DNA of 64,000 nt from Beijerinckiaceae bacterium. Its GTDB lineage: Bacteria > Pseudomonadota > Alphaproteobacteria > Rhizobiales > Beijerinckiaceae. Below are positions 5,063-8,730 of this stretch, one piece after another. The DNA lies in the NCBI GenBank assembly GCA_947454485.1, contig CANGJJ010000002.1, positions 372,001 to 436,000 on the forward strand. The letters are read 5' to 3'. Numbering within the stretch: the first letter of the stretch is position 1; each line of letters opens with the position of its first letter. Under the pieces are notes generated by a model. That model was not told the origin of the DNA, ran no database searches, and worked only from the letters and a program-made list of their open reading frames with translations. The position numbers were made by a program, and so were the translations under genes.

Positions 5063-5962
5063 ATGTTCGAATTGCGCGATCAAGACCCTTCAGATGCGCC
5101 CGCCCAGCAGCCGGGTGATTACGCCTATGTGGAACGGGCCATCCAATTTCTGACGCTCCATGTGACAGCCCAGCCCTCCCTTGCTGAGATCGCTGAGGCA
5201 GTGGGCCTGTCTGAATCCCATTTAGGCGCGGTGTTCCAACGCTGGGCGGGGCTGTCGCCCAAAGCTTTGTTGCAGGCACTGACGCTGGGCTATGCGCGCT
5301 CCTTGTTGCGCGACAAAGCCTCCGTGCTCGAAGCCTCGCTCGAGGTCGGCCTGTCAGGACCGGGGCGTTTGCATGATCTCTTCGTGACCCATGAGGCCAT
5401 GTCGCCCGGCGAATATAAAGCGCGCGGCGAGGGCCTCGTCCTCACCTATGGCTATCACCCAACGCCTTTTGGCGAGGCGCTGATTGTCACAACGCCGCGC
5501 GGCCTTGCGGGTCTTGGCTGGGTTGAGACCGATGAGGATCATGCCCGCGCACAAGCCCACGCCTTAAATGATCTGCAACGCCGCTGGCCGCGCGCGCGCT
5601 TTGTCGAAAATGCCGCCACCACACAGGCCTATGCGAGCCGCGTCTTCGACCCCAAGCGCTGGAAGGCCGGTGAGCCACTGCGGGTCGTGCTGGTGGGTAG
5701 CGATTTTGAAGTTGGTGTCTGGCAGGCCCTGCTGCGCATCCCCTTTGGCGCAGCCACGACTTATGCCGATCTGGCTCGGGCCATCGACAAACCGCGCGCT
5801 GCGCGCGCGGTGGGGGCAGCGGTTGGGCGCAACCCCGTTTCTTTCGTCGTGCCCTGCCACAGGGTACTGGGCTCAGGCGGCAAACTCACGGGCTATCACT
5901 GGGGATTGACCCGCAAACAGGCGATTTTGGGCTGGGAGGCAGCTCATAATTACAAAACATAA
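5063..5962 (+). CDS. AraC-type HTH / methylated-DNA-protein cysteine methyltransferase fusion
   Basis: Repairs O6-alkylguanine by transferring the alkyl group to its own cysteine. Residues about 20-115 form an AraC-type helix-turn-helix domain (LTLHVTAQPSLAEIAEAVGLSESHL, shown in two parts: LTLHVTAQPS then LAEIAEAVGLSESHL). The C-terminal half is the MGMT domain, with the acceptor cysteine in VPCHRVLGSGG and the DNA-binding helix region ARAVGAAVGRNP before it. Compared with E. coli Ada it lacks the N-terminal zinc/phosphotriester domain with its extra cysteines. It may therefore act as a repair enzyme with a DNA-binding module, or as a regulator responding only to O6-alkyl damage. Its stop codon lies immediately before the leader of the ABC importer operon. 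Confidence 0.9.
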   Translation: MFELRDQDPSDAPAQQPGDYAYVERAIQFLTLHVTAQPSLAEIAEAVGLSESHLGAVFQRWAGLSPKALLQALTLGYARSLLRDKASVLEASLEVGLSGPGRLHDLFVTHEAMSPGEYKARGEGLVLTYGYHPTPFGEALIVTTPRGLAGLGWVETDEDHARAQAHALNDLQRRWPRARFVENAATTQAYASRVFDPKRWKAGEPLRVVLVGSDFEVGVWQALLRIPFGAATTYADLARAIDKPRAARAVGAAVGRNPVSFVVPCHRVLGSGGKLTGYHWGLTRKQAILGWEAAHNYKT

Positions 5963-5975
5963 ATGTGATACATTT
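5961..5975. repeat. Perfect inverted repeat AAATGT-GAT-ACATTT
   Basis: A 15-base palindrome with six-base arms and a three-base spacer begins within the stop codon of the MGMT fusion gene. It sits 18 bases upstream of the likely -35 element of the ABC importer promoter. The position suits an operator, but no regulator can be assigned. Confidence 0.4.
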
Positions 5976-5992: not shown

Positions 5993-6021
5993 TTGTAACT
6001 TATTCGGAGCTTGGCTAGGCT
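5993..6021 (+). promoter_or_regulatory. Probable sigma-70 type promoter of the riboswitch-ABC importer operon
   Basis: TTGTAA at 5993-5998 and TAGGCT at 6016-6021 are separated by 17 bases, the ideal spacing. Transcription would then start near 6028, exactly at the first arm of the predicted SAM-II aptamer. The match of spacing and position is the support; the hexamers themselves are only moderate. Confidence 0.45.
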
Positions 6022-6026
6022 TTGTT

Positions 6027-6083
6027 GGCGCCGATTTGAGCTTGCAGCTTGCGGGCGCGAAACAAATGCAGCTAAAGCGCCGG
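6027..6083 (+). promoter_or_regulatory. Probable SAM-II riboswitch (SAM_alpha type)
   Basis: The leader RNA matches the conserved pattern of SAM-II riboswitches as I know it. A P1 arm GCGCC (6028-6032) is followed directly by GAUUUGA (6033-6039), then a GCUUGC-containing loop. The second P1 arm GGCGC lies at 6054-6058. The conserved 3' strand GAAACAAAUGCAGCUAAAG follows (6059-6077), ending in the hallmark GCUAAAG. SAM-II RNAs form an H-type pseudoknot that closes on S-adenosylmethionine and hides the ribosome site. Here the aptamer ends about 30 bases before an AGGAGG ribosome site, fitting translational control. I could not resolve the second pseudoknot helix by eye. A covariance search with Rfam RF00521 would decide. 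Confidence 0.8.
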
Positions 6084-6120
6084 ACCGCCCTGAGGCGTCA
6101 TCCGCGCACAGGAGGTTCTC

Positions 6121-7086
6121 ATGACGCTTTCCCGCCGTTTGCTCACCGCCTTGGCCGGCTCCTTCCTTTTGGCTAGCGCCCTTCCGGCCTCTGCCCAAAG
6201 CGAGATCCGTATCGACTGGGCGACCTATAATCCGCTCTCGCTGGTGCTGAAGGAGCGCAAGCTTCTGGAAAAGGAGTTTGAGGCAGACAAGATCTCTGTG
6301 CGCTGGGTCTTCTCGGCTGGCTCCAACAAAGCGCTCGAATTTCTCAATGCCGGTTCGCTCGACATTGGCTCGACCGCAGGTGCTGCGGCGCTGATCGCCA
6401 AGCTCAATGGCAATCCGGTGAAGGCGGTTGGCGTATTCTCCCAGCCTGAATGGACGGCTTTGGTCACACGGGGCGACACGACCATCAATTCACCCGCTGA
6501 TCTGAAGGGCAAAGCCATTGCTGTCACGCGCGGCACCGATCCGCATATCTTCCTTGTGCGTGCGCTCGATAGCGTCGGCCTCACCGAAAAAGATGTGAAG
6601 CTCGTTCTTCTGCAGCATGCCGATGGCAAGACCGCACTGGTGCGCAAGAATGTTGATGCTTGGGCGGGTCTTGATCCGATCATGGGCCAAGCTGAAGTGG
6701 AGGATGGCGCGCGCCTCTTTTACCGCAAGGCTGAGAACAACACGTGGGGCGTGCTGAATGTGCGCGAACAATATCTGCAGCAAAATCCGCAGATCGTGGC
6801 GCGCGTGCTGAAGGTCTATGAAGAGGCCCGCCAATGGGCGCTGAAAAATCCGGATGAGTTGAAGAAGCTGCTCGTCAGTGAAACCAAATTGCCCGAAGCT
6901 GTGATCGCCAAGCAGTTGGAGCGCACCAATCTGACGCATGCGTCAACTGCGATCGCGTCTACTGCCGACACAATCTTGGCAGCAGGCCTTGCGCTGCAAA
7001 AAGCCGGTGTCATCGAAGCCAATGTCGATGTGAAGGCGGGTGCCGCCAATCTCATTGATACGCGCTTTGCCGCTGCGCCCAAGTAA
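6121..7086 (+). CDS. ABC transporter substrate-binding protein, SsuA/NMT1-like
   Basis: Periplasmic binding protein of the family that serves aliphatic sulfonate, taurine and nitrate importers, 321 residues. Residues 1-26 are a Sec signal peptide ending ASALPASAQS. The mature part has the family pattern NAGSLDIGSTAGAAALIA, then ADLKGKAIAVTRGTDPH, and a C-terminal lobe with VREQYLQQNPQIVARVLKVYEEA. It heads an operon with a permease and an ATPase. The SAM-II type leader suggests that its ligand feeds sulfur or methionine metabolism, although no sulfonate monooxygenase (SsuD/SsuE) lies nearby. The family is clear; the ligand is inferred only from the regulation. Confidence 0.9.
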   Translation: MTLSRRLLTALAGSFLLASALPASAQSEIRIDWATYNPLSLVLKERKLLEKEFEADKISVRWVFSAGSNKALEFLNAGSLDIGSTAGAAALIAKLNGNPVKAVGVFSQPEWTALVTRGDTTINSPADLKGKAIAVTRGTDPHIFLVRALDSVGLTEKDVKLVLLQHADGKTALVRKNVDAWAGLDPIMGQAEVEDGARLFYRKAENNTWGVLNVREQYLQQNPQIVARVLKVYEEARQWALKNPDELKKLLVSETKLPEAVIAKQLERTNLTHASTAIASTADTILAAGLALQKAGVIEANVDVKAGAANLIDTRFAAAPK

Positions 7087-7126: not shown

Positions 7127-7948
7127 ATGAGCGATACGCAGACCATCGCCGTTGCAACACAGGCCACGCCGCGCAAACAGCGCGGCGTGCCGTCATTTGT
7201 TTATGGGCTCATTCTACCCGTCACAGCGGCGGCACTCTATGAACTTGCCTTTCGCATGGGCATGGTAGAAGCGCGGCTTCTGCCTGCGCCTTCGCGCATT
7301 GCTGAGACTTTGTTGAAACTCGCGCGCTCAGGTGAGCTCAGTGTGCATATTGCTGCAACCTTGATGCGCATTGCTTTTGGCTTTGGTCTGGGCGCTGTCA
7401 CAGGTGTGTTGCTGGGCGTTCTCACCGGTTCTTCCATCACAGCACGTCGCTTGCTCGATCCTACCTTGCAAGCTCTACGCGCTATTCCTTCGCTGGCCTG
7501 GGTGCCATTGTTCATTCTGTGGCTCGGCATTTTCGAGCCGTCGAAAATAGCGCTCATCGCTGTTGGCTGTTTCTTCCCTGTCTATCTTGGTGTGATGGGT
7601 TCTATCGCCAATATTGATCGCAAGATTGTGGAAGTGGGCCGTGCCTTTCGCCTCTCTCGCACAGCTTTGGCGCGGCGCATTTTGCTGCCCGCGATTTTGC
7701 CTGACACGATTGTGGCGTTGCGCTCCGGTCTCGGTCTTGGTTTCATGTTTGTTGTGGCGGCCGAGATCATGGGTGCCTCTGAGGGGCTTGGCTATTTGCT
7801 GGTCGATGGTCAGCAACTGGGCAAGCCCGATCAGATTCTCGCCTCCATCCTGTGCTTCGCCGTGCTCGGTAAATTGAGCGATTGGATCATCGTCATTGCC
7901 ACTCGGCCCCTGCTAACTTGGCAGGACAGTTTTGCAAGGAGCGAGTGA
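7127..7948 (+). CDS. ABC transporter permease, SsuC-like
   Basis: Inner-membrane permease of 273 residues with about six membrane segments, matching the binding protein upstream. The EAA-type coupling loop that contacts the ATPase is visible as EVGRAFRLSRTALARRILLPAILP. The run RAIPSLAWVPLFILWLGIFE is characteristic of the SsuC/TauC/NrtB permease group. The ATG at 7127 follows the binding-protein stop by 40 bases. The stop overlaps the ATPase start as TGATG, so the two are probably translationally coupled. It should form a homodimeric channel together with the ATPase downstream. Confidence 0.92.
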   Translation: MSDTQTIAVATQATPRKQRGVPSFVYGLILPVTAAALYELAFRMGMVEARLLPAPSRIAETLLKLARSGELSVHIAATLMRIAFGFGLGAVTGVLLGVLTGSSITARRLLDPTLQALRAIPSLAWVPLFILWLGIFEPSKIALIAVGCFFPVYLGVMGSIANIDRKIVEVGRAFRLSRTALARRILLPAILPDTIVALRSGLGLGFMFVVAAEIMGASEGLGYLLVDGQQLGKPDQILASILCFAVLGKLSDWIIVIATRPLLTWQDSFARSE

Positions 7949-8730
7949 TGCTCCGTCTCGCTCACCTCAACAAAGTCTATGCCAATGGCGCTTGCGCGCT
8001 GGACGATGTCACGATCGACATCGAAGCTGGTGAGATCGTCACGCTTGTCGGTGGCTCTGGTTGCGGCAAGACAACCTTATTGCGCTTGGTCAGCGGCCTC
8101 GAACATCCAACCTCTGGCACTGTGAGTGTCGATGGTGAGGCGATCTTTGCGCCTCACCCTGCGATCGGCATGGTGTTTCAAGAAGCACGTTTGCTCCCGT
8201 GGCTAACCGTTGCACAGAACATTGGTTTTGGTTTGGCGCATTTGCCTGCGGGTGAGTGCAAAGACCTTGTCGAAGACGCATTGCTGAAAGTTGGCCTTGC
8301 TGGTTATGGCACCCGCTGGCCGCGTGAATTGTCAGGTGGGCAAGCACAACGTGTTTCCATCCTGCGCGCTTTGGTGACAAAGCCCAAAGTGTTGTTGATG
8401 GATGAACCCTTCTCAGCGCTCGATGCATTGACGCGTGGCTCGCTGCAAGATCATCTGCTCGCTCTGTGGGACGCACATCGCCCAACCCTGGTACTCGTCA
8501 CGCATGATGTCGAAGAAGCGGCTGCCTTGGCAGATCGCGCGATTGTCTTGCAGCCGCGTCCCGGCCGTGTCTTCGCAGATATTCGTGTTGAACTGCCACG
8601 CCCGCGCGATCGCCTGTCGCAAGACTTCGCCGAGACAAAGCGCATCATCATGAATGCGCTCGATGGATCTTTGTCGCAGCCTGCGTTGTCCAAGAATAAT
8701 GCCGGTGCGACGGCTGGGTCTTGGTGGTAA
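7948..8730 (+). CDS. ABC transporter ATP-binding protein, SsuB-like
   Basis: Cytoplasmic ATPase of the importer, 260 residues. Walker A is GGSGCGKTT, the ABC signature is LSGGQAQRV, Walker B with catalytic glutamate is VLLMDEPFSALD, and the switch histidine is in LVTHDVEEA. These place it in the nitrate/sulfonate/taurine ATPase group. The start at 7948 shares a base with the permease stop. No terminator is evident after the gene. Together with the two genes before it, it completes an importer presumed to be controlled by the SAM-sensing leader. Confidence 0.93.
   Translation: MLRLAHLNKVYANGACALDDVTIDIEAGEIVTLVGGSGCGKTTLLRLVSGLEHPTSGTVSVDGEAIFAPHPAIGMVFQEARLLPWLTVAQNIGFGLAHLPAGECKDLVEDALLKVGLAGYGTRWPRELSGGQAQRVSILRALVTKPKVLLMDEPFSALDALTRGSLQDHLLALWDAHRPTLVLVTHDVEEAAALADRAIVLQPRPGRVFADIRVELPRPRDRLSQDFAETKRIIMNALDGSLSQPALSKNNAGATAGSWW

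Follow-up and report, generated by a model that had tools for sequence, protein, structure and literature searches.

A divergent SAM-II-class leader RNA ahead of an SsuA-like importer operon in Beijerinckiaceae

Introduction

The substrates of SsuA-like transporters have mostly been assigned by homology. A ligand-sensing RNA ahead of such an operon provides evidence on its pathway that is independent of homology, and the locus considered here raises the question of what that evidence says about one such importer. Within a 64-kb stretch of Beijerinckiaceae DNA, analyzed as a whole and called the window below, a preliminary description proposed that a SAM-II riboswitch precedes a sulfonate/nitrate-type ABC importer, and that the importer may carry methionine, a methionine precursor or a degradation product. 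SAM-II RNAs were first described from metA-type leaders as a P1 helix and a pseudoknot, both well supported by covariation, in the available text of PMC1273637; the SAM_alpha targets given in the available part of Leyn et al. 2014 are metY, metA, metX, metW, metC and hom (PMC4239095). A search of open-licence papers found no SsuABC-type importer described as being under SAM-II control.

Results

A SAM-II-like element in the leader of the operon

The ordered hallmarks of a SAM-II RNA that the preliminary description had read in the leader at 6027-6083 were all found there, letter by letter. The parts of the element are as follows.

6018-6095, + strand: match to the SAM-II (SAM_alpha, RF00521) covariance model, 26.3 bits
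6028-6032, + strand: 5' arm of P1, GCGCC, from the letters and from P1 covariation across leader types
6033-6039, + strand: GAUUUGA, from the letters; the GAUUUG part (6033-6038) is the expected third strand of the SAM pocket
6044-6052, + strand: 5' strand of the P2 pseudoknot, GCAGCUUGC, a proposed pairing
6047-6052, + strand: GCUUGC loop, from the letters
6054-6058, + strand: 3' arm of P1, GGCGC, from the letters and from P1 covariation across leader types
6066-6077, + strand: AUGCAGCUAAAG, from the letters
6071-6080, + strand: 3' strand of P2, GCUAAAGCGC, with GCUAAAGCG invariant in alignment A2

The proposed P2 comprises the pairs G6044-C6080, C6045-G6079, G6047-C6078, C6048-G6077, U6049-A6075, U6050-A6074, G6051-C6072 and C6052-G6071. 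When 201 bases around the leader were compared with all Rfam families, RF00521 was the best match (E 2.6e-4), although its score lies below the gathering score of 36 bits, the curators' threshold for this family; a standard scan therefore returns nothing, and the whole window gave 0 matches at the gathering score. The covariance search is nevertheless significant genome-wide: across the 20 contigs of the genome (98.6% complete), the window site is the top of nine matches at E<=10, with an E of 9.9e-4 against 0.31 for the second. All 14 control genomes had RF00521 matches at E<=10, two of them at E<=0.05 and none above the gathering score. The ordered pattern GATTTGAGCNNGCAGCTTGC-N10..24-GCTAAAGCG, derived from the window's own sequence, has a single occurrence in the 64 kb; none of 100 dinucleotide shuffles contains it. 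Matches to Mu-gpT-DE and Bp2_287 at the leader were rejected, as they fall far under their cut-offs.

Leader types and orthologous loci

Searching 149 genomes of the same family with RF00521 yielded matches at E<=0.05 in 77 genomes, 47 of them above the cut-off, and 97 match sequences were sorted by pattern into type A (46), type B (16) and type C (28), with seven fitting none. Type A leaders carry a CGUGG/CCACG P1 and mostly precede one gene cluster, the largest among the clusters of first genes (42 loci), to which we give the name metZ; the name is our own reading, backed in the window genome (G000) by TIGR01325. In the window genome, metZ itself (L291, 1100-1500; TIGR01325 above cut-off) is without a SAM-II leader, and five other genomes of the genus have one at metZ-cluster genes. 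Type B, the type of the window, has a GCGCC/GGCGC P1. It lies ahead of ssuA at 13 loci, the window and 12 others whose ssuA genes are orthologs of the window's (63-80% identity). Each of the remaining three copies is followed by a short ATPase gene, right behind an ssuACB operon in G052 and G132 and without the operon in G011. Type C leaders (28, e.g. L047, L057, L089) have a CGCGG/CCGCG P1, are nearly always under the Rfam cut-off, and in 18 of 28 cases are followed on the same strand, within 6 kb, by a MetQ-family gene (PF03180). At L092 and L093 a type-C SAM-II-like leader precedes a rhodanese-type sulfurtransferase, identified by eye only.

Orthologs of the window's SsuA were found at E<=1e-60 in 66 of the 149 genomes, one in each. 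A type-B leader (GATTTG-N4..14-CTTGC) lies within 400 nt upstream of ssuA in 28 of them and is absent from the other 38. Sixteen type-B leaders were used to construct a covariance model (R2). In the 66 loci it matched, at E<=3.2e-6, every one of the 28 leaders and two second copies besides, 30 sites in all, and its next match stood at 0.019; 13 of the 28 are themselves rows of the model, so that the independent gain is limited to the other 15. On the window, R2 scores 81.7 bits at 6025-6087, the window leader itself being among its contributors. Three type-B leaders exceed the RF00521 gathering score (39.4, 38.4 and 37.3 bits); since the window leader falls below it, we describe the element as a divergent variant rather than as a member at the level of Rfam.

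Among named loci (the best 80 of at least 583, a set that partly overlaps the genomes of the 66 orthologs), 27 had an R2 match ahead of ssuA with E<1e-5. These include all 12 Microvirga loci, Bosea sp. WAO, a Boseaceae strain, Methylobacterium sp. DS1.3.43, Alsobacter metallidurans and a Pseudorhodoplanes MAG, and none of the 32 Bradyrhizobium loci in the same best 80. When 397 genomes of the order were searched with R2, 104 gave a match at E<=0.001. The top match outside the family (G435) again stands before an ssuA ortholog of 65% identity; L181 is a locus of this kind, with the leader ahead of an ortholog in a different family of the order. Within the 26 loci L181-L206, the metZ reference lies downstream in 17 and the metN or metQ reference in five.

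Second type-B copies were seen behind ssuB at L050 (5783-5844), L082 (6008-6069, - strand), L235 (9227-9288), L244 (9216-9277) and L260 (8645-8706). Behind each copy come a short ATPase gene that has diverged (PF00005 in L260) and, after it, osmC. A type-B-like leader at L182 (1120-1600, - strand; R2 60.8 bits) precedes a protein of about 109 residues with no Pfam match to E 0.1.

The chance that the element is a fortuitous resemblance within a GC-rich leader is negligible. Its score below the gathering score and an unremarkable fold energy would fit such an accident, which is contradicted because orthologous leaders carry the element (28 of 66, with 12 of 12 in the Microvirga loci) and by the genome-wide E value. 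The covariance match and the orthologous leaders together bear out the first reading of a probable SAM-II riboswitch.

Conservation and covariation of the aptamer

GATTTG, TTGC and GCTAAA are invariant in the 16 leaders of alignment A2, and TTTG, TTGC and GCTAAA remain invariant in A6, which spans the leader types. We take GAUUUG, UUGC and GCUAAA to be the blocks that form the SAM pocket, and on this assignment the conserved pocket nucleotides of SAM-II are present in type-B leaders in both alignments. A third-strand role of GAUUUG in the pocket is given by published SAM-II/SAM-V structures (PMC6061858, in the available text). Could the aptamer be a relict, or one altered to bind another ligand such as the importer's own substrate? 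P1 and P2 are divergent, the Rfam score is low, the register of the 3' flank differs, and variant SAM-II RNAs are in print (RF01726; PMC2864571, available part), but the presumed pocket blocks are unchanged in all 16 A2 leaders, with the caveat that the C before UUGC is A in three Microvirga loci. We regard such a change of ligand as very improbable.

Over 35 leaders that we chose from types A, B and C, four of the six P1 pairs show changes on both sides; none of 500 shuffles attained the observed numbers of paired cells and of both-sided cells or the observed covariation score, whereas the number of pairs with a both-sided change was reached by 67 and that of further pair types by 318 of the 500. 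Within type B (14 distinct leaders) the five inner P1 pairs do not vary. The outermost pair, over 34 distinct leaders, is C-G in 21, A-U in three, U-A in two and a mismatch or wobble in eight; it is C-G in most type-B relatives, and a G-G mismatch (6027/6059) in the window. For P2, seven of the eight pairs are complementary but invariant in type B, and the outermost pairs form in 7 of 12. An energy test detected no P2 covariation in type B, mismatched pairs of loop and 3' flank being as good in 1775 of 5000 permutations, against 0 of 5000 for type A (metZ-type) and 906 of 5000 for type C; a contiguous-helix test likewise found none in type B. Conservation of P1, the pseudoknot and the GCUAAAG strand in orthologous leaders, on which the preliminary description had staked its reading, thus holds for P1, with compensatory changes across types, and for the strand; the pseudoknot pairing is kept too, but without covariation.

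Thirteen of the 28 type-B family leaders carry a hairpin inserted before GCUAAA, which lengthens the spacing from UUGC to GCUAAA to 33 to 51 nt from 18 to 20 nt. All 13 inserts (minus their last 8 nt) fold as hairpins of differing sequence, with z scores of -2.1 to -4.0 against mononucleotide shuffles. RF01726 gave no match up to E 1 on two of these 13 leaders and none up to E 10 on the window.

Promoter, fold and the mode of switching

Two further features of the leader bear on expression.

5993-6021, + strand: possible promoter, weak and placed by eye relative to P1, with -35 TTGTAA (5993-5998), a 17-nt spacer and -10 TAGGCT (6016-6021)
6082-6118, + strand: hairpin predicted in the minimum-free-energy fold, pairing most of the Shine-Dalgarno sequence AGGAGG (6110-6115)

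A consensus promoter scan of the window leader returned no promoter. In type-B relatives, TTTGACA...CCTATAAA-like promoters end directly before P1, the position described for SAM-II in the available text of PMC1273637; most relatives have a TTGACA..TATAAA-like promoter where the weak one of the window lies. Upstream of the window leader, an inverted repeat AAATGT-GAT-ACATTT lies at 5961-5975, at the end of an ada-like gene. Recurring GAAC/GTTC-type repeats, possibly a transcription-factor operator, occur in the promoter before ssuA with or without the riboswitch (e.g. L171, L172, L169, L170).

An intrinsic terminator was rejected as the expression platform of the window, as a terminator search of the leader found none. 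Folded without pseudoknots, the window leader is not more stable than its shuffles (z -0.43), and its best fold lacks P1, the 5' arm pairing instead with a GCGCC 3' of the aptamer. Across 46 leaders, the Shine-Dalgarno sequence is less open (mean 0.35) than when the upstream part is shuffled (0.47), lower in 33 of 46 and with a Wilcoxon p of 0.001, a value that ignores the relatedness of the leaders and refers to mononucleotide shuffles; in the window itself it is no less open than in the shuffled controls (0.41 vs 0.42). Forcing the aptamer to form lowers the openness in 18 of the 46 leaders, raises it in six and changes it by <=0.02 in 22; the window again shows no difference (0.17 vs 0.17). 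In several of these leaders the Shine-Dalgarno sequence chosen by the script is a poor one (3 of 6 matches). Both transcriptional and translational cases of SAM-II control are known (PMC9373788, available part), and most SAM-II RNAs are transcriptional according to the available text of PMC6061858. Because the 46 leaders show reduced openness and a terminator is missing, translational OFF control is our best guess, one supported by the leader set and not by the window.

The importer and its substrate

The element stands ahead of three genes.

6121-7086, + strand: SsuA-family substrate-binding protein, 321 aa (TIGR01728; PF09084; model pLDDT 89; best fold SsuA 3ksx)
7127-7948, + strand: ABC permease, SsuC/TauC-like (PF00528; below the cut-offs of all six NCBIfam models listed; start codon chosen by us)
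7945-8730, + strand: ABC ATPase, SsuB-like (PF00005; under the cut-off in each of the 25 NCBIfam models shown out of 187; start codon chosen by us)

The binding protein exceeds the TIGR01728 (SsuA family) cut-off, with 223.4 against 163.5 bits, which agrees with the earlier assignment to the sulfonate/nitrate-type importers. Its structural model (pLDDT 89, from 70 sequences) matches SsuA first (3ksx, 2x26) and then TauA, at 24-28% identity; a prediction from eight sequences (pLDDT 48.5) was dropped. In X. citri SsuA, Q36, G68, G86 and S141 hold the sulfonate, and W185 sits at the alkane chain (PMC3839906, available text). In a sequence alignment at this low identity, four of the five contact positions are replaced in the window protein (Q36 by A34, G86 by A86, S141 by D140 and W185 by L184) and one is kept (G68 as G67). 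A34, G67, A86, D140 and L184 are identical in 69 of 69 aligned orthologs (alignment A5, with rows chosen from the 66 and the 80 loci; its 70th row, a distant relative from L056, is excluded from the count). The Ala in place of G86 is a mild change, since that contact is made via the backbone. An invariant Asp where SsuA has its sulfonate-bonding Ser would speak for a ligand group that carries donors or a positive charge, rather than for a sulfonate. The pocket would then seem better suited to a positively charged or amino compound, for example a relative of methionine, and the replaced contacts lend some support to an importer of a methionine-related compound.

The main alternative is an ordinary SsuABC system that imports alkanesulfonates for sulfur, its SAM-II leader merely coupling scavenging to methionine supply. 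It draws on the TIGR01728 score, on best folds that include SsuA structures with alkanesulfonates bound (3ksx, 3ksj) ahead of TauA, and on a type-C SAM-II leader before an organosulfur operon in L056, with a similar set in L052. Against it, Gln, Ser and Trp contacts have become Ala, Asp and Leu in all 69 orthologs; 25 of the 28 leader-bearing genomes have no SsuD above cut-off (three do), seven of the 25 with a weaker relative; and no oxygenase was noted among the three genes of the window operon. In the window genome the top SsuD match reaches 135.2 bits, below the cut-off of 518.2. We consider the alternative unlikely. An importer that is SsuA-like in fold but whose cargo is probably not an alkanesulfonate is the reading that we carry forward.

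The idea that the importer substitutes for a missing MetNIQ system was rejected: MetQ (PF03180) is found in 0 of 6 genomes of the window's genus but in 17 of the 28 leader-bearing genomes. Downstream on the same strand, osmC follows in 67 of the 80 named loci (the best 80 of at least 583) and in 38 of the 66 ortholog loci, about 15 of which do not extend far enough to include it; no osmC was found in the window, L039 or L207-L210. The gene adds a sulfur context that favours our reading: in sulfur-limited Pelagibacter, one of the most upregulated transcripts is that of osmC, which has a SAM-V riboswitch ahead of it (PMC5069961, available part).

SAM-II leaders beyond methionine synthesis

The rule that SAM-II controls methionine synthesis genes, from which the preliminary description set out, proved incomplete: besides the 18 of 28 type-C leaders before a MetQ-family gene, one precedes an MsuE/monooxygenase operon. 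At this locus (L056, 1059-5694, - strand), a type-C leader is followed by MsuE, an SsuA-like protein, a permease, an ATPase and an NtaA/DmoA-family monooxygenase. Two of these, MsuE and NtaA/DmoA, exceed NCBIfam cut-offs; the permease and ATPase were assigned by similarity. A type-C leader at L052 (3000-8003, + strand) stands before a similar set, its monooxygenase above the NCBIfam cut-off and its permease and ATPase placed by similarity only. The L056 operon implies that, in the same family, organosulfur use does come under SAM-II control.

Discussion

What, then, does the leader say about the importer? Taking aptamer, operon and orthologs together, we consider it highly probable that the element is a divergent SAM-II-class riboswitch through which plentiful SAM lowers the expression of ssuA, permease and ATPase, and that the operon encodes an importer of an organosulfur compound, probably not an alkanesulfonate. 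The element is present and conserved ahead of this operon in its relatives, and its P1 covaries across leader types. When SAM is plentiful, the aptamer would fold around it and expression of the operon would drop, most likely through a Shine-Dalgarno sequence kept within the downstream hairpin. When SAM runs short, the operon would be made, and the importer would take up an organosulfur compound for conversion into methionine and SAM. A probable SAM sensor ahead of the operon suggests that the importer feeds methionine supply, and here points away from the sulfonate label.

We advance more tentatively, as a possibility somewhat short of even, that the importers behind these leaders, filed as sulfonate type, carry a methionine-type or sulfonium compound, and that this SAM-II subtype controls uptake rather than synthesis, with SAM being balanced by import. 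The cargo may in that case be S-methylmethionine, methionine sulfoxide or a breakdown product of SAM. If true, the subtype would mark a family of importers labelled sulfonate-type, and the bacteria that have them would balance SAM in this way. The uptake systems behind SAM-II leaders below threshold also suggest that the SAM-II regulon in the order is wider than in the available text of PMC4239095. Standard Rfam cut-offs hide part of this regulon, and the type-B subtype is largely missed by them.

The SAM-II kind of riboswitch is already known; the present element is a divergent variant that recurs across genera and whose target is absent from the literature examined. Like RF00521, the window leader has the same order of blocks, the same place of P1, an alphaproteobacterial host and a gene behind it that is compatible with sulfur metabolism, and its relatives share the promoter directly before P1. 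Unlike the CGUGG/CCACG of SAM-II RF00521, its P1 is GCGCC/GGCGC; its outer P2, compared by eye, is a shorter GC/GC instead of the CCGGYC/GRCCGG helix of the metZ-type RNAs, and it precedes an importer, unlike the RF00521 targets in the available text of PMC4239095. The extra loop sequence, with an inserted hairpin in 13 of the 28 type-B leaders, recalls the SAM-II long loops RNAs (RF01726), which the available part of PMC2864571 lists for Bacteroidetes and marine sequences, unlike the host here. A proposed pseudoknot and ligand pocket similar to those of SAM-V, for which translational OFF control has been proposed (PMC6061858, available text), go together with the lack of any Rfam SAM-V match in the window up to E 10. 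The binding protein, finally, is like those of SsuABC/TauABC alkanesulfonate importers in fold and family; it differs from them at four of the five SsuA ligand-contact positions, and its permease and ATPase partners score under the NCBIfam cut-offs shown.
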